A stretch of 64,000 nucleotides of DNA from Acidobacteriota bacterium (lineage in GTDB: Bacteria; Acidobacteriota; Vicinamibacteria; Vicinamibacterales; CAVVIG01), in contig QHWB01000040.1 in NCBI GenBank assembly GCA_003222395.1, forward strand, positions 64,573-128,572, read 5' to 3'. Within the stretch, counting starts at the first letter, position 1. Each line of letters begins with the position of its first letter. Below, piece after piece: positions 8,563-27,326 of this stretch. Position numbers and translations under genes: made by a program. The notes beneath the pieces are model-generated. The model made no database searches, was not told the DNA's origin, and saw only the letters and a list, made by a program, of their open reading frames with translations.

Positions 8563-10200
8563 TTGTTGGCTCTGGCCGCTGATATGGTGCGAGCGCGAGG
8601 GGTCACCTCCGAGAGCGAGCTCGCGGCGCTCTTCGACTCACCTCCAGCGGCGGCCGACGCCGAGGTGCTCAAACGACTCCGTCAGATGTACGAAGCCGGC
8701 GGCTGGGTGCTCGTGGAGTCGGCCATCGCCGACATGCCTGCCGACCTGCGGTGGCTGTTCGAGTCGGGCGCGGTCACGCTCGAACAACTGGCGGCCGTGC
8801 ACCGCGCGCTCGGCGCCACGTCGGCCGCCGATCTGGCGGCAGCGATCGACGACCAGCGGATGCGTGGAGCTGCGGGCCTCGACGCGACAGTCGAATCGGC
8901 AATCGCCGGAGCGCTGCCGGCGCTCCGCGCGCACATCCCTCGCATTCCGCTCGGGCGCGCGGTCGCGATCGCCGAACCGATCCTGCAGCAGCTGCGCAAG
9001 ACGCCCGGCGTGGAGTGGGCCGAGCCGGCCGGCTCGCTCCGGCGCGGTCAGGACCTGATTGGCGACATCGAGTTCGTCGTGTCGACCGACCGGCCCGGCG
9101 AGGTGATCGACGAGTTCCTGCGCGGCCCTGAGGTGACGAGAACGCTGCATCGCGGCGCACGCCGTTTGTACGTGCTGATCGATCGGGTCCAGGTCGGCAT
9201 TCGTTTTCCCGAGCCGGACAATGCGGGCGCGTCGCTCCTGTACCTGACCGGATCGGCGGCGCATTTCGACGCCTTACGCGCGCACGCGCAATCGATCGGA
9301 TGGCGATTGACGAGCAGCGGACTGCACGCGGCAGCCGATGGCGCGCCGCGGCCCGCGCCGACCGAGACCGACATCTACTCGGCGCTGGGTCTGCCGTGGG
9401 TCCCGCCTGAAATCCGGCAGGGCGACGACGAGGTCGCCGTCGCGGCTCGAGGCGAGCTGCCGGTTTTCGTCGCGCCGGACGACATTCGCGGCGATCTCCA
9501 CATGCATTCGATCTACAGCGACGGCCGCGATTCGGTCGACGCGATGGTGGACGCCTGCCGCGCGCTGGGATACGAATACATGGCGATCACCGATCACTCG
9601 CCGCATTCGGCGGCGACGCGCAGCCTGACGCCCGACGCGGTGAAACGGCAGGCCGATGAAATCGCGGCGCTGCGCGAACGATTCGACGACATCACGATCC
9701 TGCACGGCTGCGAAGTCGACATTCTCATCGACGGCACGCTCGACTTCTCCGATCGCGTGCTCGAACAGTTCGATATCGTGCTGGCGTCGCTGCACGAGCG
9801 TGCCGGCCAGGAGCGCGACAAGCTGCTGAAGCGCTATCTCGCGGCGATGCACCATCCGTTGGTGACGATGATCACGCATCCGACCAACCGGCTCGTTCCG
9901 CACCGGGCCGGCTACGACCTCGACTACGACCGGCTGTTCGAGGCCGCCGTCGAGACGAAAACGATTCTCGAAGTCGACGGCGCACCCGCGCATCTCGACC
10001 TGGACGGTGCTCTCGCCCGGCGCGCCGTCGCCGCCGGCGCCATGGTCAGCGTCGACAGCGACAGCCACCGCACCGACACGCTGGAACGTCAGATGTATCT
10101 CGGCATCGTGACGGCGCGGCGCGGATGGGTCGAGCCGCGCCACGTGGTGAACACCCGATCGATTGCCGACCTCCGCGCGTTGATCGCGGCGAAGCGGTGA
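8563..10200 (+). CDS. PolX-family protein with degraded polymerase site and intact PHP domain
   Basis: Family X polymerase-like protein of 545 residues from TTG 8563. The polymerase palm has GSLRRG and then GDIEF (Asp168, Glu170) where active enzymes have GDxD. The third carboxylate is lost (VGIR, Gly212, instead of xDLR), and TGSAAHF replaces TGSxxHN. The PHP domain is complete: DLHMHSIYSDG, ITDHS, GCEVDI, ASLH, HPTNR and DSDSH. I infer a metal-dependent phosphoesterase or nuclease without nucleotidyl transfer. Residues of an N-terminal helical domain seem to be encoded upstream (8488-8562) without any standard start codon. A canonical PolX lies at 25.6 kb. Confidence 0.85.
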   Translation: MLALAADMVRARGVTSESELAALFDSPPAAADAEVLKRLRQMYEAGGWVLVESAIADMPADLRWLFESGAVTLEQLAAVHRALGATSAADLAAAIDDQRMRGAAGLDATVESAIAGALPALRAHIPRIPLGRAVAIAEPILQQLRKTPGVEWAEPAGSLRRGQDLIGDIEFVVSTDRPGEVIDEFLRGPEVTRTLHRGARRLYVLIDRVQVGIRFPEPDNAGASLLYLTGSAAHFDALRAHAQSIGWRLTSSGLHAAADGAPRPAPTETDIYSALGLPWVPPEIRQGDDEVAVAARGELPVFVAPDDIRGDLHMHSIYSDGRDSVDAMVDACRALGYEYMAITDHSPHSAATRSLTPDAVKRQADEIAALRERFDDITILHGCEVDILIDGTLDFSDRVLEQFDIVLASLHERAGQERDKLLKRYLAAMHHPLVTMITHPTNRLVPHRAGYDLDYDRLFEAAVETKTILEVDGAPAHLDLDGALARRAVAAGAMVSVDSDSHRTDTLERQMYLGIVTARRGWVEPRHVVNTRSIADLRALIAAKR

Positions 10201-14722: not shown

Positions 14723-15979
14723 TTACGCCACCTTTGCGACTCGGGCGCCGAGACCCTGCAGCCTTTCCACCAGGCGTCCATAGCCTCGTTCGACCGTTTC
14801 GAGCGGGGCGAGGCGGCTCTGGCCGTCGGCTGCCAACCCTGCGGCAATCAACGCCATTCCCGAACGAAGATCGCGGCTGTCGAGCGGACGGCCGCGCAGC
14901 CGGCGCGGACCGCTGACGATGATCCGGTGCGGATCGCACAGGAAGAGATCCGCGCTCATGCTGCTCAACTGCTCCAGCGCGAAGAGTCGCAGCTCGTAGA
15001 GCCAGTCGTGCACCAGCGTCTGTCCCTCGCACTGCGTCGCCAGCACGGTGACAAGGCTCACCATGTCGCTCGGGAATCCCGGCCAGAGACCGGTGGTGAT
15101 CCGTCCTGCGGCATGCGGCCGCGATCGATGCACGCAGAACACATCGCCGTCCATCGCGCATTCGATCTTCATGCGCTTCAGTACCGCGGCAATCACTTCG
15201 ATGTCCTCGGTACGCGCGCCGCGAACCTGGATCTCGCCTCCAGTCACGGCGGCGACGACCGCCCAGCTTCCCGCTTCGATGTAGTCGCCCCACAGCTGAT
15301 GCTCGGCGCCGTGCAGCGGTCCGCCGCCTTCCACGCGAATCGTCGACGTGCCCGCGCCCGTCATTCCGACGCCGAGCTGCTGCAGAAACAGACACAGCTC
15401 GACGACGTGCGGCTCGCAGGCGGCGTGACGGATTTCGGTCACGCCGTTGGCGGCGGCCGCCGCAAGCAGCGCGGTCTCGGTGCCGGTCACCGACGCTTCA
15501 TACAAATAGATCGACGTCGGCTGCAGACCGTGCGGCGTTTCGAGGATGTGGCCCGGTCCCGCGACGTTCCGCGCGCCCATCGCCAGCAGCGCCTCGAGAT
15601 GCGTGCCGATCGTGCGGCGCGCCGGAAAGTCGCCGCCGGGCGGCGCCAGATGCGCGCGCCCTCTGCGCGCCAGCAGTGGACCGAGCAGCAGGACCGACCC
15701 GCGCAGCCGGCCGACGAGCGCGCCGTCGGGCTCGTGCTTGACGACGTCGGGACAGCGCACGCGAAGCGTCGTGCTCCCAATGCCTTCGACATGTCCGCCA
15801 AGATCGAGGATGAGCCGCGCCATCACCTCGACGTCGCTGATGCGCGGCACGTTGGTCAGCACGCATTCTTCGGTGGTGAGGAGGCACGCCGCGAGGATCG
15901 GCAGCGCCGCGTTCTTGTTGCCTTCCACCTCCACCGATCCCGACAGGCGTTGACCGCCTTCAATCACAAGCGTCGACAT
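14723..15979 (-). CDS. murA: UDP-N-acetylglucosamine 1-carboxyvinyltransferase, Asp-type
   Basis: First committed step of peptidoglycan precursor synthesis: adds enolpyruvate to UDP-GlcNAc. The 418 residues contain GNKNAALPILAA with Lys22 and Asn23, PGFPSDM with the catalytic Asp, and DLRSGMALIAAGLAA. At the position of Cys115 the loop reads PPGGDFPARR, so Asp117 replaces the PEP-binding Cys that fosfomycin alkylates; such Asp enzymes in Mycobacterium and Borrelia are naturally resistant. ATG 15979 follows aaggaccagg. Last gene of the nagZ-to-murA operon, 23 bases after murB. Confidence 0.93.
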   Translation of the reverse strand: MSTLVIEGGQRLSGSVEVEGNKNAALPILAACLLTTEECVLTNVPRISDVEVMARLILDLGGHVEGIGSTTLRVRCPDVVKHEPDGALVGRLRGSVLLLGPLLARRGRAHLAPPGGDFPARRTIGTHLEALLAMGARNVAGPGHILETPHGLQPTSIYLYEASVTGTETALLAAAAANGVTEIRHAACEPHVVELCLFLQQLGVGMTGAGTSTIRVEGGGPLHGAEHQLWGDYIEAGSWAVVAAVTGGEIQVRGARTEDIEVIAAVLKRMKIECAMDGDVFCVHRSRPHAAGRITTGLWPGFPSDMVSLVTVLATQCEGQTLVHDWLYELRLFALEQLSSMSADLFLCDPHRIIVSGPRRLRGRPLDSRDLRSGMALIAAGLAADGQSRLAPLETVERGYGRLVERLQGLGARVAKVA

Positions 15980-16002
15980 CCTGGTCCTTGGTTCGTTGTC
16001 TT

Positions 16003-16956
16003 TTAGCGGGAGTCCGGCTGATCGAACTGGCCAAGATACACGATCTCGTCCCGCAGCTCGACATTGAAGCGCTCGCGCACCGCCACGCGGCATCGCTCGA
16101 TGAGCGTCCGGATGTCGCGCGCCGTCGCCGGCCCTTCGTTGACGATGAAGTTGCCGTGCGTCGGCGAGACGCGGGCCCCGCCGATGGCGACGCCTTTCAG
16201 CCCGGCGCGATCCACCAGCGCACCTGCCGACCACGGAATTCCGTCGGGCATCCGGTCGCGGCCCGGTTCGGGATTCCGGAAGACGCAGCCGGCGCTGGGC
16301 GACTCGAGCGGTTGTGTGCGCTTGCGGTACGCCAGCGACTGGCGCGCGGTCGCACGAAGCGCCGCGGGATCGCCCGGCGTCACGCGGAAGACGGCCGACA
16401 GCAGAATCTCGCCGCTGTCCTGCAGGCGGCTGCGGTCGTATCCGAACGCCATCGCGGCCACCGGCACGTCGGCGGTCGCGCCGTCGCGTGACGCGAGACG
16501 AACCTCCGTCACGAACTCGCCGATCAGGCGGCCTCCAAAATGCGCGTTCCCGAATACTGCGCCGCCGACCGTACCCGGCGTTCCGGCCCACGCTTCGAGT
16601 CCGGCGCAGCCATGATTGATCGTCCATCGCACGAGGCCGTTGATCGTCACCGCGGCGTCGGCGCGAACGTGATGCTCGCCGTCGCCGCGCACCTCGCCGC
16701 CGCGGGGACGGATGACCAGTCCGCGAACGCCCGCGTCGGACACGAGCACGTTCGATCCGCCGCCGAGGACGGTCACGCGGACGCCCTCGCGGCGCGCGAG
16801 TCTCAGCGCGGTGACGATCTCGTCGGCACCGCGCGTCTCGATCAGCCACTCCGCCGGACCGCCGACCTTGAAGGTCGTCAGCGGCGCGAGCGGAACGTTC
16901 GCCCGTACCCGATCGGCGCCGAACGCCAGGTCGAGCGACGCGCGGAACGTCGTCAC
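16003..16956 (-). CDS. murB: UDP-N-acetylenolpyruvoylglucosamine reductase
   Basis: FAD enzyme that reduces the MurA product to UDP-MurNAc with NADPH. The 317 residues show NVPLAPLTTFKVGGPAEW at the start, the FAD-binding VLGGGSNVLVSD, the GTPGTVGGAVFGNAH loop, and the C-terminal SAGCVFRNPEPG block with the catalytic Ser region. GTHGN-like SPTHGNFIVNEG supplies the last conserved motif. The start is GTG 16956, overlapping the pxpC stop as GTGA. Together with murA it makes the acceptor used by Mpl encoded upstream. Confidence 0.94.
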   Translation of the reverse strand: MTTFRASLDLAFGADRVRANVPLAPLTTFKVGGPAEWLIETRGADEIVTALRLARREGVRVTVLGGGSNVLVSDAGVRGLVIRPRGGEVRGDGEHHVRADAAVTINGLVRWTINHGCAGLEAWAGTPGTVGGAVFGNAHFGGRLIGEFVTEVRLASRDGATADVPVAAMAFGYDRSRLQDSGEILLSAVFRVTPGDPAALRATARQSLAYRKRTQPLESPSAGCVFRNPEPGRDRMPDGIPWSAGALVDRAGLKGVAIGGARVSPTHGNFIVNEGPATARDIRTLIERCRVAVRERFNVELRDEIVYLGQFDQPDSR

Positions 16957-17891
16957 GACGGAGACGACTCCACTGCCATGAGCGCACGTTCCTGCGCGAT
17001 GAGCGCCGCCAGCGCTTCTCGCGGCGTGCAGACGACGAAGGAAATCGCATCGCCGGGAGACAGCTGGCCGGCCACCGCGATGTCGGCCGTGATGACCGTC
17101 GCGATCTTCGGGTAGCCGCCGGTCGTCTGACGATCCGCCATCAGGAGGATCGGCAGACCCGACGCCGGCACCTGCAGCACACCGAGCGGCGTCGCGTCGG
17201 AAATGATGTCGGCGCCCCGCGCGTGCGTCAGACGCGGTCCATCCAGACGGAATCCCATGCGATCGGACTGCTGGCCGATGACATACGGCGCCGATTGCAG
17301 CACGTCGAGGCTGTCCGCGCTGAAGTAATCGGCCTGCGGTCCCGGCAGCACGCGAATCCGCGCCTGGTGATCGGGCAGCGGCACATGACGCGGCGCCGCA
17401 GGCGGCGTCGATCGCGTATGCGTCGCGTCGCCGAGCACCAGGCGATCGCCGGCTCGGAGCGCGCGTCCGTCCAGGCCGCCCATCGCGCTGATGAGGTGAG
17501 TGGACCGGCTCCCGAGCACCGGCAGCGTCGCGATGCCGCCCGCAATCGCGAGGTAGGCACGCGCGCCGCGGCGCCGCGCGCCGAAGCGCAGCCGCGATTC
17601 GGCCGACGCGACGAAGGGAGCGTCCATCGGCACCGCGCGTCCGTCGAGCGTGAGATCGAATTCGGCTCCGGCCACGGCGATCACGCGCTCGGTCTCGAAC
17701 TCGAGCTCGGGACCGAGCAGCGTGATCTCGAGGCCGGCTGCGCCGCGATCGTTGCCGACGAGCGCGTTCGCGAGCCGACAGGAGAACGGATCCATCGGTC
17801 CGGCGACGGGGACGCCACGCGCCTGAAACCCCCAACGGCCGGAATCCTGCACCGTCGTGAGCATGCCGGGCTTGATCACGCGGACGGCCAT
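16953..17891 (-). CDS. pxpC: 5-oxoprolinase subunit C (KipA/PxpC)
   Basis: Large-subunit partner of the PxpABC 5-oxoprolinase, which opens 5-oxoproline to glutamate with ATP. The 312 residues begin with VIKPGMLTTVQDSGRWGFQ and G-P-MDPFSCRLANALVGN, then SRSTHL, and end with RQTTGGYPKIATVITADIA, all typical of this family. It shares this fold with the urea amidolyase and allophanate-type carboxyltransferase domains, but no biotin carboxylase gene lies near. ATG 17891 overlaps pxpB by 16 bases. No pxpA is in the window. Confidence 0.9.
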   Translation of the reverse strand: MAVRVIKPGMLTTVQDSGRWGFQARGVPVAGPMDPFSCRLANALVGNDRGAAGLEITLLGPELEFETERVIAVAGAEFDLTLDGRAVPMDAPFVASAESRLRFGARRRGARAYLAIAGGIATLPVLGSRSTHLISAMGGLDGRALRAGDRLVLGDATHTRSTPPAAPRHVPLPDHQARIRVLPGPQADYFSADSLDVLQSAPYVIGQQSDRMGFRLDGPRLTHARGADIISDATPLGVLQVPASGLPILLMADRQTTGGYPKIATVITADIAVAGQLSPGDAISFVVCTPREALAALIAQERALMAVESSPS

Positions 17892-18553
17892 CGGTCGTAC
17901 TCCTCGCGCGCGATCCGCACGAACTGTGCGGCGTCGCCGGCTTTCAACAGGAACGGCTCGGCGCGAGCCGGATCGAATGGCTTTACCGGCGTGCGCCCGA
18001 TCAACTGCCATCCGCCGGGCGTCTCGGCCGGATAGATTCCGGTCTGCACGCCGGCGATGCCGACCGAGCCGAGCGGCACGCGCACGCGAGGCGTCGCGTG
18101 CCGCGGCATCGCGATGCGGCGATCGACGATGCCCATGTACGCGAAGCCCGCGACGAAGCCAAGCATGAAGACGCGGTAGGTGGCCGACGTGTGCAGTCGA
18201 ATGACTTCGTCCTCGCTGACGTGCGCGAATGCCGCGACGCTCGCCAGATCCGGACCGAGCTCGCCACCGTAGCACACCGGAATGCTGATCGGAGCGCTCG
18301 TCGTCCGCACGCGCGTTTCGGGCCGCGTGAGCGCGTGCTCGACGCGCGTCATCAGCGCGTCGTAGTCGACGCGCAATGGATCGAAGTAGATCGCAACCGA
18401 CCGATACGTCGGCACCACGTCGCAGACGCCGGCAATCTCCGCGCACTGCACCGCGTCGGCCAGCGCAATCGTCCGCGCGTTGACCTCGACGTCGATGCGC
18501 TCCTCGAATTCCACGAACAGCGCAGAGTCGCCGGCCGGAATGATCCTGGGCAT
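17876..18553 (-). CDS. pxpB: 5-oxoprolinase subunit B (KipI/PxpB)
   Basis: Second subunit of the PxpBC complex; the B. subtilis homologue KipI also inhibits a sporulation kinase. The 225 residues start IIPAGDSALFVEFEE, and contain VCYGGELGPDL, HTSATYRVFMLGFVAGFAYMG (given here as one segment near residue 120) and the PLGSVGIAGVQTGIYPAETP block with GGWQLIGRTP, all characteristic. Lies between mpl and pxpC inside the murein-recycling operon, after a REP-like pair. Confidence 0.91.
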   Translation of the reverse strand: MPRIIPAGDSALFVEFEERIDVEVNARTIALADAVQCAEIAGVCDVVPTYRSVAIYFDPLRVDYDALMTRVEHALTRPETRVRTTSAPISIPVCYGGELGPDLASVAAFAHVSEDEVIRLHTSATYRVFMLGFVAGFAYMGIVDRRIAMPRHATPRVRVPLGSVGIAGVQTGIYPAETPGGWQLIGRTPVKPFDPARAEPFLLKAGDAAQFVRIAREEYDRWPSA

Positions 18554-18562
18554 TGGTTCGCT

Positions 18563-18666
18563 CGGCTGAAAGCCGCGCTACAGGTGCACGTCCGTTCTCG
18601 CGCGACACCCGAATCTGTAGCGCGAGCCTTTCAGGCGAGCGCTCACGGAGCCTTTCAGGCGAGCGC
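18563..18666. repeat. Pair of inverted REP-like elements with GTAG heads facing each other
   Basis: Element 1 is cggct-gaa-agccg followed by cgctac (18563-18581). Element 2 is GTAGCGCG followed by agcctttcaggc (18617-18635), then a second partial copy gagcctttcaggcgagcgc (18648-18666). The GCGCTAC/GTAGCGC heads point toward each other about 35 bases apart, as in REP pairs. The last copy supplies the stop and final codons of mpl. Confidence 0.75.
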
Positions 18667-20073
18667 CTCCCGCGGCCCCTCCAGCGCCGTCAGCAGCTTC
18701 TGATGAATTCCCCCGAACCCGCCGTTCGACATGAGGACGACGAGATCGCCGCGGCGGTGTTCACGAACCACGATCTGGACGATGCCGTCGAACGATTCGG
18801 CTTCGCGGGCGGACTGTCCCCGTGCCTTCAAATCGCGCACGAGCCGTGGCACCGACAACCGTTCCGCTTCGGGCAGCTTCGATCGAAAGACCGGCGCGAT
18901 GAGGACCTCGTTCGCCGAGCCGAACGCCTTTGCGAAATCGTCCTGAAACACGGAGCGGCACGACGAAGCGGACCGCGGCTCGAACACCGCCCAGATGCGC
19001 GCGTCCGGGTTCGCCGCGCGCAATCCGGCAAGCGTCTCCGCCACGGCCGTCGGGTGGTGCGCGAAGTCGTCGTACACCGTGACGGCATCGGCCACGCCGA
19101 CGACCTCTAGCCGCCGCTTGATCCCGCCGAACAGGCGCAGCCCCTCGGCGATCCGCTCAGCACCGATGCCGACCTCAGCCGCGACGGCGATCGCGGCGAG
19201 CGCGTTGCGAACGTTATGGATGCCGACGAGCGGCATGTCGAACGCGCCGAACGGCGAACCGTGATGCCGCACCGTGAAGCGCGTGGCCGTCCCCGAGGTC
19301 TCGATGTCGTACGCGTGCCAATCGACGTCGCTGCCCGTGCCGAACGTCTGGACACGCGACACAGCGCCCGTCAGGAGCTCGCGCGCGCCCGCGCTGTCGG
19401 CGCCGACGAGCAGCAGCCCCTTGCGCGGCACCAACCGCACGAGGCGACGGAACGCGAGCATCACGGCATCGAAATCGGTGTAGATGTCCGCGTGATCGAA
19501 CTCGACGTTGTTCACGACTGCGATGTCGGGAAGGTACTTGAGGAACTTCGCCGTCTTGTCGAAGAAGGCGCTGTCGTATTCGTCCCCTTCGATGACGAAA
19601 TCGCGTCCCTGTCCCATTCGATAGCTCGATCCGCGGTCGCCGAAGTTGCGGGCGATGCCGCCGACGAGAACGGTCGGATCGACGCCGCCGTGCGTCAACA
19701 GCCACCCGGTCAGCGACGTCGTTGTCGTCTTGCCGTGCGTGCCCGCGATCACGATCGACCGCGCGCCCCAAAGAAAATGCTCGCGGATCGCCTCCGGCAG
19801 CGAGCAGTACCGGATCTTTCGATCGAGCACTTCTTCGAGCTCGGGGTTGCCGCGGGAGATCGCGTTGCCGACGACGACGAGATCGAGATCGCCGGTGATG
19901 TGATCGCCACTGTAACCGGTGAGGGTCGGGATGCGTTCCGACGCCAGAAAATCGCTCATCGGCGGATACACGTCCTGATCGGACCCGCGGACGTCGAGTC
20001 CCTTCCGCTTGAGCATCGCGGCAAGCGTCGCCATCGCCGTCCCGCAGATGCCGATGAAGTGGATCCGCCTCAC
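18655..20073 (-). CDS. mpl: UDP-MurNAc:L-Ala-gamma-D-Glu-meso-DAP ligase
   Basis: Recycling ligase that joins the recovered murein tripeptide to UDP-MurNAc. Mpl rather than MurC is indicated by IHFIGICGTAM, GSDQDVYPPMS, VVGNAISRGNPE and the C-terminal MSNGGFGGIHQKLL, all close to E. coli Mpl. The ATP loop is GTHGKTTTT, the conserved FVIEGDEYDSAFFDK and NNVEFDHADIY follow, and YDDFAHHPTA is present. The 472 residues start at GTG 20073 after aaggaccaaat; the frame extends to GTG 20103. The last five residues (REALA) lie in a REP-like element. Confidence 0.92.
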   Translation of the reverse strand: MRRIHFIGICGTAMATLAAMLKRKGLDVRGSDQDVYPPMSDFLASERIPTLTGYSGDHITGDLDLVVVGNAISRGNPELEEVLDRKIRYCSLPEAIREHFLWGARSIVIAGTHGKTTTTSLTGWLLTHGGVDPTVLVGGIARNFGDRGSSYRMGQGRDFVIEGDEYDSAFFDKTAKFLKYLPDIAVVNNVEFDHADIYTDFDAVMLAFRRLVRLVPRKGLLLVGADSAGARELLTGAVSRVQTFGTGSDVDWHAYDIETSGTATRFTVRHHGSPFGAFDMPLVGIHNVRNALAAIAVAAEVGIGAERIAEGLRLFGGIKRRLEVVGVADAVTVYDDFAHHPTAVAETLAGLRAANPDARIWAVFEPRSASSCRSVFQDDFAKAFGSANEVLIAPVFRSKLPEAERLSVPRLVRDLKARGQSAREAESFDGIVQIVVREHRRGDLVVLMSNGGFGGIHQKLLTALEGPREALA

Positions 20074-20089
20074 ATTTGGTCCTTGGTGC

Positions 20090-21013
20090 TCAGACAACCG
20101 CACTTTCCTCGATCACCATCCGCGGGTGCTTGTCGGCGATGACTCGACAGCTGACGCCGAGCGGCAGCGTCATCGCGGGACTGATCGTGTGGCCCGACGG
20201 GAAACCAAGCAGCACGGGACCTGGAAAATCGCGGAACAGCGTCGCCATCACGTCGCGCGCCCTGATGTCGCCCGACGGCTCGTCGCATTCCGGCAGCTCG
20301 CCGATGACGACTGCAGACGCTCGCGCCAGAAGACCTGTCTGGCACAGTTGCGTGATCATCCGGTCGAGCCGGTACGGACGCTCGCGGACTTCGTCGAGGA
20401 AGAGCACGTAGCCCTGAGGAGGATCGAACGCAAACGGGGTGGCGAGCGACGCGAGGAGCTGCGTCAGCGTGCCTCCGAATAACGGACCCGCCGCCTCGCC
20501 GGCTCGCAGCGATTCGACGGCCGATCCGGTCAGCTCGCCAGCCGGCTCGGGACGACACACGGCTTTGGTGAACGATTGAACGTCGTAGCCGGCGGCGCCG
20601 CGACCGAGACGGCCCGCGAGCATCGGCCCGTGAAACGCGATCACGCCGCAGCCGATCGTCAGAAAAGTCAGGAGCGCCGTGAGATCGCTGTACCCGATCA
20701 ACGGTTTCGGCGTCCGCCGGATCTCGTCGCGGTCGAGCAGCGGCAGCACTTGCGCGCTGCCGTAGCCGCCGCGGACGCCGACGATGCCCGCGATCGACCC
20801 GTCGCGCCATGCCGCGCGCAAGGCTGCCGCGCGCGCATCACGCGATCCGGCCACGTACCGATCGCGCGCGAACACCGAGTCGTCGTAGACGGGAATGAAT
20901 CCGAGGCTGCGAATCTCGTCAATCCCCTGGTCGAATTCGTCGCGCCGGAACGGACTCGCGGGCGCCACCACGGCGAGGCGATCCCCTCGAGCGAGGGCGC
21001 GCGGCTTGAGCAT
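20090..21013 (-). CDS. ldcA: LD-carboxypeptidase (peptidase family S66)
   Basis: Serine peptidase that removes the terminal D-Ala from murein tetrapeptides, giving the tripeptide used by Mpl. The 307 residues start LARGDRLAVVAPASPF. They hold GVRGGYGSAQVLPLLD, the nucleophile motif LIGYSDLTALL, FGGTLTQLLASL, VLFLDEVRERPYRLDRM with a likely catalytic Glu, and FPSGHTISPAMTLPLG with the catalytic His. ATG 21013 overlaps the nagZ stop as TGATG. MccF-type peptidases share the fold, but the operon context favours LdcA. Confidence 0.91.
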   Translation of the reverse strand: MLKPRALARGDRLAVVAPASPFRRDEFDQGIDEIRSLGFIPVYDDSVFARDRYVAGSRDARAAALRAAWRDGSIAGIVGVRGGYGSAQVLPLLDRDEIRRTPKPLIGYSDLTALLTFLTIGCGVIAFHGPMLAGRLGRGAAGYDVQSFTKAVCRPEPAGELTGSAVESLRAGEAAGPLFGGTLTQLLASLATPFAFDPPQGYVLFLDEVRERPYRLDRMITQLCQTGLLARASAVVIGELPECDEPSGDIRARDVMATLFRDFPGPVLLGFPSGHTISPAMTLPLGVSCRVIADKHPRMVIEESAVV

Positions 21014-22110
21014 CACAGGTAGCGCGCCATCTCCCGAGCGATCGCCTGATGCTCGTCGCGGCCGATGGCGGCGCGCAGCTGCCGGCCGCCGAGCGGCCGC
21101 GGACCGACCGGCGCAGCGAGAAACCGCTCTTTTGCGCGCTGCTGCCGCTTCAACGCATCCTCGACGCGCGAAAGACGCAACCGCTCGTCCTCGACCGCGT
21201 GAACGATCTCTTCGAGCGCCGCCGCCTGTGTATCGTGATCGCCCGAGCAGACCAGCACGCCGTCGCATCCCGCCTCGATCGCCATCACTGCGGCGCGCGG
21301 CACCGGATATTCGTTCGCCACCGCCTTCATTTCCAAATCGTCGCTCAGGATGACGCCATCGAAGCCGAGCTCGCCGCGCAGGATGTCGCCGACAATCCGC
21401 CGCGACAGCGTCGCCGGGCGAGTGTCGTCGAGCGACGGCACGAACACGTGCGCGGTCATGATCGTCGCGACGCCCGCTTCGATCGCCGCCTTGAAAGGCA
21501 CGAACTCCGTTTCTCGCAGCCGCTCCGGCGGGTGCTCGACGAGCGGCAGCTCGTGGTGCGAGTCGGTGCTCGTATCGCCGTGCCCCGGAAAGTGCTTCCC
21601 GCACGCAGCGATCCCTTCCGCCTGCAGCGTCCGCACGATCGCGCCGCCGAGCCGCGCGACGTCGGCCGCCTGCTCGGCCAGCGCACGATCGCCGATGACC
21701 GGGTTCTTCGGATTGGTATGCACGTCGAGGACCGGTGCGTAGTCGAGCGTCACGCCGACCGCCTTGAGCTCCGAGGCGAGGGCGCGGGCAAAGCGCTCCG
21801 CGAGCCGCTGGTCGCCGCTCCGCCCGAGCGTGATCATCGGCGGCCATTCGGTGAATGGCGCCTTCAGGCGCGCGACGCGTCCGCCTTCCTGATCGATCGA
21901 CACCCACAGCGGGAGGTCGGCGGCGAGTCGCGACGCTTCGTAGGACAGCTCGGCCACCTGATCCGGATCGGCGACGTTTCTGGCGAACAGGATGACGCCG
22001 CCAAGGCTGAATTGCCTGACGAGCGACCGTAACTCAGGCGGAACCTGATGACCGTTGAACCCGACGATCAGGAGCTGGCCGATCCGACGACGAAGAGCGT
22101 TGGGCGACAC
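21013..22110 (-). CDS. nagZ: Beta-N-acetylhexosaminidase (GH3)
   Basis: Cytosolic glycosidase that removes GlcNAc from GlcNAc-anhydroMurNAc peptides. The 365 residues have IGQLLIVGFNG at the start, VSIDQEGGRVARLKAPF, GVTLDYAPVLDVHTNPKNPV, then the NagZ loop KHFPGHGDTSTDSHHELP with the catalytic His, and SDDLEMKAV with the nucleophile Asp. No signal peptide is seen, consistent with a cytosolic enzyme. First gene of the nagZ-ldcA-mpl-pxpBC-murB-murA operon and divergent from the permease gene. Confidence 0.94.
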   Translation of the reverse strand: MSPNALRRRIGQLLIVGFNGHQVPPELRSLVRQFSLGGVILFARNVADPDQVAELSYEASRLAADLPLWVSIDQEGGRVARLKAPFTEWPPMITLGRSGDQRLAERFARALASELKAVGVTLDYAPVLDVHTNPKNPVIGDRALAEQAADVARLGGAIVRTLQAEGIAACGKHFPGHGDTSTDSHHELPLVEHPPERLRETEFVPFKAAIEAGVATIMTAHVFVPSLDDTRPATLSRRIVGDILRGELGFDGVILSDDLEMKAVANEYPVPRAAVMAIEAGCDGVLVCSGDHDTQAAALEEIVHAVEDERLRLSRVEDALKRQQRAKERFLAAPVGPRPLGGRQLRAAIGRDEHQAIAREMARYL

Positions 22111-24589: not shown

Positions 24590-24596
24590 TTTGCCG

Positions 24597-25604
24597 GTGC
24601 ACATCGCCTGTTCGGCGCCGACGCGCATCGATCTCGCCGGGGGCACTATCGACATCTGGCCGCTCTACCTTTTCCATGATGGCGCGACGACGCTGAACGC
24701 GGCGATCAGCCTGCGCGCGCACGCCGACATCGCAGCACGCTCGGATGGCCGCGTCGAGCTTCGATCGATCGACACCGATCGCGGCGCCGGCGCCGCTCAC
24801 TGGTCCGAGCTCGATTCCACCGGCGACCTGTCGCTGCTCGCGCTGCTCGCGCGCCATTACCGGCTCGACAACGCGATGCTGACGACGCGGGGCGAATCGC
24901 CGGCCGGCGCGGGCATCGCCGGATCGTCGGCGCTGACGATTGCCGTGTGTGGGGCGCTCGCCAGGTGGACGGGCGCGTCGGAAGATCCTGAACACATCTT
25001 TCAGGTCGCGATGAACGTGGAGTGTCAGACAATCAAGGTGCCGACAGGCGTTCAGGACTACCGACCGGCGCTGTACGGCGGAATCGCCGCCGTCGAGCTG
25101 CGCGTCGACGGCATCAAGCGCGTCGCGCTCGACGTCGACGCGCGCGAGCTCGAACGGCGCATCGTGCTCGCCTACACCGGCGCGCCGCGCAATTCCGGCA
25201 CGAACAACTGGGAGATCACGAAAAAACACATCGACGGCGACCGGCACATCTTCGATTGTTTCGAGCGCATCCGCGACACGTCCATCGCCATGCGGCAGGC
25301 GCTGCAGCGCGGGAAGTGGGACGAGGTCGGGCGTCAGATCGCGACCGAGTGGGACAACCGGAAGCGGCTCGCGCCCGGCGTCACGACGCCGACGATCGAA
25401 GACCTCATCGCGCGCGCCCGCGCGGCCGGCGCGACGGCGGCGAAAGTGTGCGGCGCGGGCGGAGGCGGATGCCTGTTCTGCTACGGGCCGCCGGAATCGC
25501 ACGACGCCATTCGGAACGCCGTCGCGAGCGGCGGCGCTCGTCTTCTCGATTACCGCATCGAGGCCGAAGGCCTGCGGACGCGGGCCGCAGATGCACCCGA
25601 ATAG
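24597..25604 (+). CDS. GHMP-family sugar kinase (heptose-7-phosphate kinase-like)
   Basis: Small-molecule kinase of 335 residues. The N-terminus reads SAPTRIDLAGGTIDIWPLY, the GHMP motif 1; motif 2, the ATP loop, is SPAGAGIAGSSALTIAVCGA; motif 3 is KVCGAGGGGCLFCYG. This layout resembles D-glycero-D-manno-heptose 7-phosphate kinases and galactokinase-like enzymes. GTG 24597 is favoured over TTG 24591 because of the TATAAT spacing. The stop is 3 bases before the polX start, so the two genes probably share a transcript; I cannot tell the sugar. Confidence 0.82.
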   Translation: MHIACSAPTRIDLAGGTIDIWPLYLFHDGATTLNAAISLRAHADIAARSDGRVELRSIDTDRGAGAAHWSELDSTGDLSLLALLARHYRLDNAMLTTRGESPAGAGIAGSSALTIAVCGALARWTGASEDPEHIFQVAMNVECQTIKVPTGVQDYRPALYGGIAAVELRVDGIKRVALDVDARELERRIVLAYTGAPRNSGTNNWEITKKHIDGDRHIFDCFERIRDTSIAMRQALQRGKWDEVGRQIATEWDNRKRLAPGVTTPTIEDLIARARAAGATAAKVCGAGGGGCLFCYGPPESHDAIRNAVASGGARLLDYRIEAEGLRTRAADAPE

Positions 25605-25607
25605 GCG

Positions 25608-27326
25608 ATGGACAACAGGGCAATCGCGCGGATCCTTCGGGAGATTGCCGACCTGCTGGAGATCAAGGACGCGAATCCGTTCAAGATTCGCGCGTACCGC
25701 AACGGCGCCGACATCGCCGCCAATCATCCGCACGAGCTGAATACGCTCGACGAAGCCGGCTTGCGCGAGATCCCGGGAATCGGAAAGGACCTCGCGACGC
25801 GCATCCGCGAGGTCGCCGAATCGGGCGACGCCGCGTTTCATCGCGAGCTCGTCGCCGAATTCCCGCCCACCATCCTCGATTTGCTCCATCTGCAGGGTGT
25901 CGGTCCAAAGACCGTTGCGATGCTCTATCGCGAGCTCGCCGTCCGGACGATTGACGATCTCGAAGCGGCCGCGAAAGACGGCCGCGTGCGATCGCTGCGC
26001 GGGATGGGTCCGAAAAAGGAGGCGTTGATCCTCAAAGCGCTCGAGGAACGGAAGCGATTCGCCGGCCGGCATCTTCTGCCCGATGCGCACGACGCCGCCG
26101 CCGCGCTCGTCGGATATCTGCGGGAGCGCGCGCCCGATGCCGTCGTCGAACCGGTCGGCAGCCTGCGGCGCGGATGCGACACCTGCGGCGATCTCGACCT
26201 GCTCGCGAGCGGCGCACCGCCCGGACTCATGGATCAATTCGTCGAGTACCAGCAAGTTGAGCGAGTGCTCGGCCACGGCGACACGAAGTCGAGCATCCTC
26301 CTCGAAGGCGGCTTCCAGGCCGACCTGCGGCTCGTCGCCGCCGACAGCCGCGGCGCGGCGCTCCAGTATTTCACCGGGTCGAAGGGGCACAACATCGCCC
26401 TGCGTGACCGCGCGATCGGCCGCGGCTTCAAGTTGAACGAATACGGATTGTTCCGAACCACCGACGACGTGCGCGTCGCCGGCGAGCGTGAGGAGGAGAT
26501 ATACGGCGCCCTCGATCTGGATTGGATTCCACCGGAGCTGCGCGAGTTACGCGGCGAGATCGAGGCGGCCGAAGCGCACGCGCTGCCGCGGCTGATCGAG
26601 CGTGCCGACCTGCGCGGCGATCTGCACAGCCACACGACCGCGACCGACGGCAGGGACGATATCCGAGCGATGGCCGATGCGGCGCGCGCAGCCGGCCTCG
26701 AGTATCTCGCGATCACCGATCACAGCCAGTCGCTGGCCATGGCGAACGGCCTCGACGAGCGGCGCGCCGCCGATCACGCGTCGCGGATCCGCGCGGTCGA
26801 CGCGGAACGCCCAGGCATCCGGCTGCTCGCGGGCATCGAATGCGATATCAAGCCGGACGGCACGCTCGATCTGTCGAATGGTTGCCTCGCGGAGCTCGAT
26901 CTCGTTGTCGCGTCGGTGCACTCCGCCTTCAACCAGGATCGGCGGCAGATGACCGACCGCCTGCTGCGCGCCATCGAGCATTCTCACGTCGACATCCTCG
27001 GCCATCCAACCGGACGGCTGATCCTCAGGCGTGAACCGTATCCGGTCGACGTCGACGCCGTCGTCGACGCGGCGGCGCGACACGGCGTGGCGCTCGAGAT
27101 CAACTGTCAGGTCGATCGGCTCGACCTGAACGATGCGCATGCCAAGCTCGCGCGCGATCGCGGCGTCCGGCTCGTCATCTCGACCGACGCGCACTCGCGC
27201 CATGCGTTCGGCCGTCTGAGGTGGGGAATTCTCGTGGCGCGTCGCGCGTGGCTGCGTCCGGCCGATGTGCTCAACACGCTTCCGTTCGACGAGCTGCGCG
27301 CATCGCTGCGAAGGAACCGTCCGTGA
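25608..27326 (+). CDS. polX: DNA polymerase/3'-5' exonuclease PolX
   Basis: Family X repair polymerase of 572 residues acting in base-excision gap filling, with a PHP exonuclease. The N-terminal helix-hairpin-helix domain has IPGIGKDLATRI (about 56) and LQGVGPKTVAMLY (about 95). The palm has GSLRRGCDTCGDLDLL with Asp195 and Asp197, ADLRLV with Asp239, and YFTGSKGHN. The PHP domain is intact: DLHSHTTATDG, ITDHSQS, GIECDI, ASVHS, HPTGR and STDAHS. It starts 3 bases after the kinase stop, and a GTGA overlap links it to the next small gene. Confidence 0.94.
   Translation: MDNRAIARILREIADLLEIKDANPFKIRAYRNGADIAANHPHELNTLDEAGLREIPGIGKDLATRIREVAESGDAAFHRELVAEFPPTILDLLHLQGVGPKTVAMLYRELAVRTIDDLEAAAKDGRVRSLRGMGPKKEALILKALEERKRFAGRHLLPDAHDAAAALVGYLRERAPDAVVEPVGSLRRGCDTCGDLDLLASGAPPGLMDQFVEYQQVERVLGHGDTKSSILLEGGFQADLRLVAADSRGAALQYFTGSKGHNIALRDRAIGRGFKLNEYGLFRTTDDVRVAGEREEEIYGALDLDWIPPELRELRGEIEAAEAHALPRLIERADLRGDLHSHTTATDGRDDIRAMADAARAAGLEYLAITDHSQSLAMANGLDERRAADHASRIRAVDAERPGIRLLAGIECDIKPDGTLDLSNGCLAELDLVVASVHSAFNQDRRQMTDRLLRAIEHSHVDILGHPTGRLILRREPYPVDVDAVVDAAARHGVALEINCQVDRLDLNDAHAKLARDRGVRLVISTDAHSRHAFGRLRWGILVARRAWLRPADVLNTLPFDELRASLRRNRP

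Follow-up and report, generated by a model that had tools for sequence, protein, structure and literature searches.

The window analysed here, a 64,000-nucleotide stretch of contig QHWB01000040.1 from an Acidobacteriota bacterium of the order Vicinamibacterales (genome completeness 99.3%), contains seven minus-strand genes, nagZ-ldcA-mpl-pxpB-pxpC-murB-murA, which fill positions 14723-22110 and very probably form an operon. The reading favoured here, with a probability of about 0.78, is that of a Vicinamibacterales-specific operon, in which housekeeping synthesis of UDP-N-acetylmuramic acid (UDP-MurNAc) would be combined with murein peptide recycling and with the PxpBC subunits of an ordinary 5-oxoprolinase, whose PxpA is encoded elsewhere. 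According to this scheme, MurA and then MurB would carry out the housekeeping synthesis of UDP-MurNAc, NagZ would strip N-acetylglucosamine (GlcNAc) off anhydro-muropeptides, LdcA would convert tetrapeptide to tripeptide, and Mpl would join the tripeptide to UDP-MurNAc, the product of the operon being shared by Mpl and MurC. We infer co-transcription, the respective enzyme activities and a joint regulatory benefit, such that new UDP-MurNAc would be matched to returning peptide in a loop that is neither closed nor dedicated. PxpBC together with PxpA would most likely return L-5-oxoproline, of spontaneous or imported origin, to glutamate, with PxpBC as a passenger of the operon. A preliminary description of this stretch, made from its letters alone, had proposed a murein-recycling operon with a built-in UDP-MurNAc supply; its gene identities, packing and neighbour conservation are confirmed, whereas the dedicated supply, the missing PxpA and a murein role of PxpBC are not.

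Conservation of the neighbours had been set beforehand as a test, and it holds through the order. Regions around murB, mpl or pxpC were fetched from 38 relatives and the window genes mapped on them by tblastn, with a scan for PxpC relatives adding named records of Acidobacteria and Vicinamibacteria metagenome-assembled genomes. The gene order is never broken in any of the 48 distinct loci of the order, which come from up to 14 families of Vicinamibacterales, and is far beyond chance. Thirty of these loci are complete, seven are complete but without pxpBC, and 11 are partial, mostly at contig ends; one of them, L088, has no murB or murA, yet the contig end is not reached. The cluster is also borne by a record named Candidatus Sulfopaludibacter (L096). 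Median gaps between neighbours across the order amount to 5 to 43 bases, and in five of the seven loci without pxpBC the distance between mpl and murB shrinks to 14-60 bases. As side observations, about 6 kb of other DNA lies between mpl and murB in G028 (L045:8395-14498), with one match to lolA and two weak ones to the mannosyltransferase-like gene of the window, and mpl of G007 (L025:6213-7608) aligns in three pieces covering different stretches, as in a frameshifted or misassembled gene.

The packing in the window is operon-like, with overlapping or short junctions except between mpl and pxpB. Overlaps are of 1 base (nagZ/ldcA), 16 bases (pxpB/pxpC) and 4 bases (pxpC/murB), and gaps are of 16 bases (ldcA-mpl) and 23 bases (murB-murA), the widest, of about 100 bases, lying between mpl and pxpB (18554-18654). 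This gap contains a short repeat-like stretch, GCTCGCCTGAAAGGCTC occurring twice and followed by CTGTAGCGCGGCTTTCAGCCG; CTGTAGCGCGGCTTTCAGCCG occurs once in the window, and the only fetched locus to contain it is L007, which spans this very place. Terminator-like sites inside the operon show no excess over shuffled sequences, a measure that is not informative for this phylum.

An unlikely explanation of this arrangement is that of a fortuitous row, an ancestral arrangement held by general synteny with no joint regulation. It draws on the oppositely transcribed flanking genes (lolA, a secretin gene, a GHMP kinase gene and polX), which are kept in most relatives and most loci, and for this reason synteny is no proof of a common function for every member. 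However, the overlapping or very short junctions argue against a fortuitous row, as do the usual closure of the gap where pxpBC is absent and the preservation of nagZ-ldcA-mpl without those flanks in G101, which belongs to the same class but to a different order and is the only such genome in the sample. Furthermore, in G025 the murB slot (L041:9554-10582) is occupied by another type of MurB (NF010478, 393 bits) that shares about 31% identity with MurB of the window, and the slot appears to contain this other type, judged by identity alone, also in L095:10932-11957 and L096:10950-11984. Such refilling of the slot at the same position hints at selection on position.

The arrangement appears to stop at the border of the order. 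In a phylum sample of 129 genomes, in which the positions of mpl, murB and pxpC were compared by eye from printed tables, no genome outside the order has mpl within 5 kb of murB; G043 and G083 have an Mpl-like match about 7 kb from murB. Using the window proteins in tblastn, ldcA was found to adjoin mpl in five of 20 mpl regions outside the order, and none of the other five cluster genes was detected in these 20 regions, a search that very distant homologues could escape. Similarly, pxpBC was not found beside mur genes in 63 loci outside the order, other phyla included, except for two weak matches, to GH3 (36%) at a distance of 5.5 kb in L116 and to a Mur ligase (25%) in L151. G101 has the same three genes nagZ-ldcA-mpl in the same order, and unlike the Vicinamibacterales it has no pxpBC, murB or murA in the row; its murB lies beside a MurC-like ligase gene, murA is alone and a contiguous pxpABC is located elsewhere. 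With this single outgroup genome, the simplest history would be an old ldcA-mpl pair, to which nagZ was added in the class, and pxpBC and murB-murA in the order. A murB gene directly followed by murA, here of the Cys type, is also present in three other Acidobacteriota families (L067:7363-9554, L068:7470-9731 and L069:7573-9912), and murB and murA may have come together on more than one occasion. No paper joining peptidoglycan recycling, Acidobacteria, Mpl and a gene cluster was found in the literature searched, and the passages of PMC9790009 that name nagZ, ldcA, mpl, murB and operon describe no such cluster. The operon is lineage-specific, made of ordinary enzymes, and apparently undescribed so far.

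All seven genes lie on one strand, overlapping or closely spaced, as the preliminary description had it, and their families match curated models, with matches above cut-off for six of the seven proteins and Pfam domains defining LdcA (NCBIfam/Pfam; Table 1).

Table 1. Genes of the cluster, with coordinates in the window, preferred starts and the matches by which they were assigned
Gene	Position	Strand	Preferred start	Assignment and matches
nagZ	21013..22110	-	GTG 22110	GH3 beta-N-acetylhexosaminidase; NF003740, 264 bits (cut-off 207); PF00933
ldcA	20090..21013	-	ATG 21013	S66 LD-carboxypeptidase; PF02016 + PF17676 (Peptidase_S66 N and C domains)
mpl	18655..20073	-	GTG 20073	UDP-MurNAc:L-Ala-gamma-D-Glu-mDap (meso-diaminopimelate) ligase; TIGR01081, 422.5 bits (cut-off 388.7)
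pxpB	17876..18553	-	ATG 18553	5-oxoprolinase subunit; TIGR00370, 213 bits (cut-off 145.6); PF02682
pxpC	16953..17891	-	ATG 17891	5-oxoprolinase subunit; TIGR00724, 307 bits (cut-off 230); PF02626 (CT_A_B)
murB	16003..16956	-	GTG 16956	NF010480, 272 bits (cut-off 259); sole MurB of the genome
murA	14723..15979	-	ATG 15979	TIGR01072, 396 bits (cut-off 392.7); sole MurA of the genome

NagZ is of the cytoplasmic type, with no signal peptide seen by eye, and contains the motifs KHFPGHG (172), DSH (183) and SDDLEM (256), so that the catalytic His loop and the Asp nucleophile motif are present. LdcA has the Ser/Glu/His motifs GYSDL (107), LDEVRE (206) and SGHT (273), and is divergent from the E. coli-type equivalog, reaching 121 of 378 bits with NF008424, below the cut-off; its best match in the PDB is the muramoyltetrapeptide carboxypeptidase 6uuk (105 bits), followed by the microcin-immunity protein MccF from a branch of S66 (93 bits). 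Mpl carries the three Mur-ligase domains PF01225, PF08245 and PF02875, its closest PDB sequence is 3hn7, and the murC model TIGR01082 remains under its cut-off (315.6 bits against 335.1). PxpC does not reach the cut-off of the equivalog NF045499 (262 of 500). Beyond the cluster, two PolX-type DNA polymerase paralogues (8563-10200 and 25608-27326) flank it on its two sides and are both kept in many relatives, the former scoring under the PolX cut-off (374 of 426).

In comparison with tripeptide recycling of E. coli, to which the relevant passages of PMC9790009 assign AmpG, NagZ, AmpD, LdcA and Mpl, this bacterium shares NagZ, LdcA, Mpl and AmpG, and differs by having the genes in one operon with its only murA and murB and by the absence of AnmK. 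Several points weigh against the favoured reading. A search for a muropeptide importer, as suggested in the preliminary description, reveals a confident AmpG in this genome (C118:296690, 427 bits with a cut-off of 350), but no more than 15 of 40 relatives have an AmpG match above the cut-off, and AnmK is found in none of 40 genomes of the order, though NagZ is kept. Taken together, these two results leave the full recycling pathway not demonstrated. In addition, the mpl-pxpB gap could hold a separate promoter; a scan for promoter-like sites inside the operon, which covered sigma-70 types only and is not informative for this phylum, revealed none; and, with the flanks conserved too, plain synteny may account for some of the conservation. 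G101 lacks AnmK as well, and 51 of the 129 genomes in the phylum sample contain it. Other muropeptide importers are known, such as YejBEF-YepA, mentioned for Agrobacterium in the same passages of PMC9790009.

Known routes for anhydro-MurNAc are those of E. coli and of the MurU pathway (PMC13046382), and without AnmK these appear closed, leaving the sugar half with no known route. This leads to a different and very unlikely explanation, namely that the operon serves a peptide-first murein recycling, in which anhydro-MurNAc would follow an unknown route, new synthesis by MurA and MurB would replace the MurNAc half and PxpBC would return glutamate. Anhydro-MurNAc would then be discarded or processed, possibly by the GHMP-family kinase beside nagZ. 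The gene for this sugar kinase (24591-25604) is divergent from nagZ and present in most relatives, and its product is weakly HddA-like (118 of 600 bits); it is a tentative candidate for the sugar kinase that is missing.

The preliminary description had noted PxpB and PxpC without PxpA, a situation that does not hold for the genome as a whole, because one pxpA (PF03746) is present on contig C83, away from pxpBC. It adjoins genes for an M14 zinc carboxypeptidase and a major facilitator superfamily (MFS) transporter; several close relatives share parts of this setting, and in the 20 relatives inspected pxpA has no genes of the murein cluster nearby. Of the 29 relatives with a completeness of 90% or more, 25 have both PxpA and PxpC and four have neither (Fisher p 4.2e-5, not corrected for relatedness), with the joint absences spread over different families and genera; three mismatches (G013, G022 and G023) come from genomes of lower completeness. 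Moreover, pxpB and pxpC are situated just beside pxpA in G034 (on C24), and in G033 pxpC is about 2 kb from pxpA (on C32). This co-occurrence and the proximity in G034 and G033 favour an ordinary 5-oxoprolinase. A contiguous pxp operon, typical of 5-oxoprolinase but not essential, is absent here: outside the order, 53 of 63 loci have pxpA near pxpBC, as compared to none of 17 within it. Thus, as in the PxpABC systems of E. coli, B. subtilis and C. glutamicum (pxpTABC), all three subunits are encoded in this genome and co-occur in relatives, but pxpA is on a different contig from pxpBC. Growth of C. glutamicum on 5-oxoproline requires pxpTABC, and the same study proposes that the pxp genes also return spontaneous 5-oxoproline to glutamate (PMC13274462). 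The best reading of PxpBC from these comparisons would be an ordinary split 5-oxoprolinase with PxpA acting in trans.

There is only a slim chance that PxpBC is instead murein-related, for example in opening pyroglutamate derived from stem-peptide glutamate, and forms a functional part of the recycling unit, as the preliminary description had suggested. In 39 of the 48 loci of the order, pxpBC lies within the cluster, flanked by mpl and murB and apart from pxpA, which speaks for such a role; adjacency of pxpBC alone says little, however, as the synteny embraces unrelated genes such as polX, lolA and the secretin gene. Apart from the co-occurrence of PxpA with PxpC and the pairing of pxpA with a peptidase and a transporter, this role is opposed by the dispensability of pxpBC in the cluster, five relatives without it keeping nagZ, ldcA, mpl, murB and murA, by the placement of pxpC beside or near pxpA in G034 and G033, and by chemistry, since stem glutamate is of the D form and linked through its gamma-carboxyl, whereas characterised PxpABC acts on 5-oxo-L-proline (PMC13274462).

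The housekeeping part of the favoured reading is determined by the copy numbers of murA and murB. A search with the window MurA revealed one MurA in this genome; the EPSP-synthase family has two members, and the second, on contig C118, was rejected as another MurA copy, being AroA. MurB is represented by a single PF02873 match, and it is single in 38 of 39 other relatives, G013 (82% complete) being without any. A separate MurC-type ligase is encoded on C25, among other Mur-ligase matches. Being single, the window copies are the housekeeping genes and must supply both Mpl and MurC. This disposes of the built-in, dedicated UDP-MurNAc supply, for which the preliminary description had itself named the lack of a second murA or murB as decisive. 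It is accordingly barely credible that recycling runs as a closed module apart from de novo synthesis, with a UDP-MurNAc supply of its own, even though the enzymes for the needed steps are neighbours and stay together throughout the order: the single-copy MurA and MurB, which serve all wall synthesis via a MurC encoded elsewhere, refute this reading in its strong form, and the absence of AnmK leaves its sugar half not closed.

In this MurA, an Asp replaces the Cys115 of the E. coli enzyme, the target of fosfomycin. The same residue is found in all 32 loci of the order readable there, within a nearly invariant loop of the PGGDFPARR type, and the window MurA retains equivalents of K22, R120, D305, R331 and R397. 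Outside the order, Asp-type MurA occurs in seven of 12 proteins read, from six families, with the loop PGGDxIGRR, from which the loop of the order differs. The E. coli MurA Cys115Asp variant is active and fosfomycin-insensitive, and natural Asp-type MurA is known from M. tuberculosis, C. trachomatis and B. burgdorferi (PMC4790336), with which the window MurA shares the Asp and the other catalytic residues. On the basis of this residue, the enzyme is predicted to be intrinsically resistant to fosfomycin.

The first two committed enzymes of wall building and those of peptide recycling can thus share an operon throughout an entire order of soil-associated bacteria. The layout of G101, set against that of the order, offers a clean comparison for how such an operon is assembled, and two traits are predicted for these bacteria, namely insensitivity of MurA to fosfomycin and murein recycling without AnmK.

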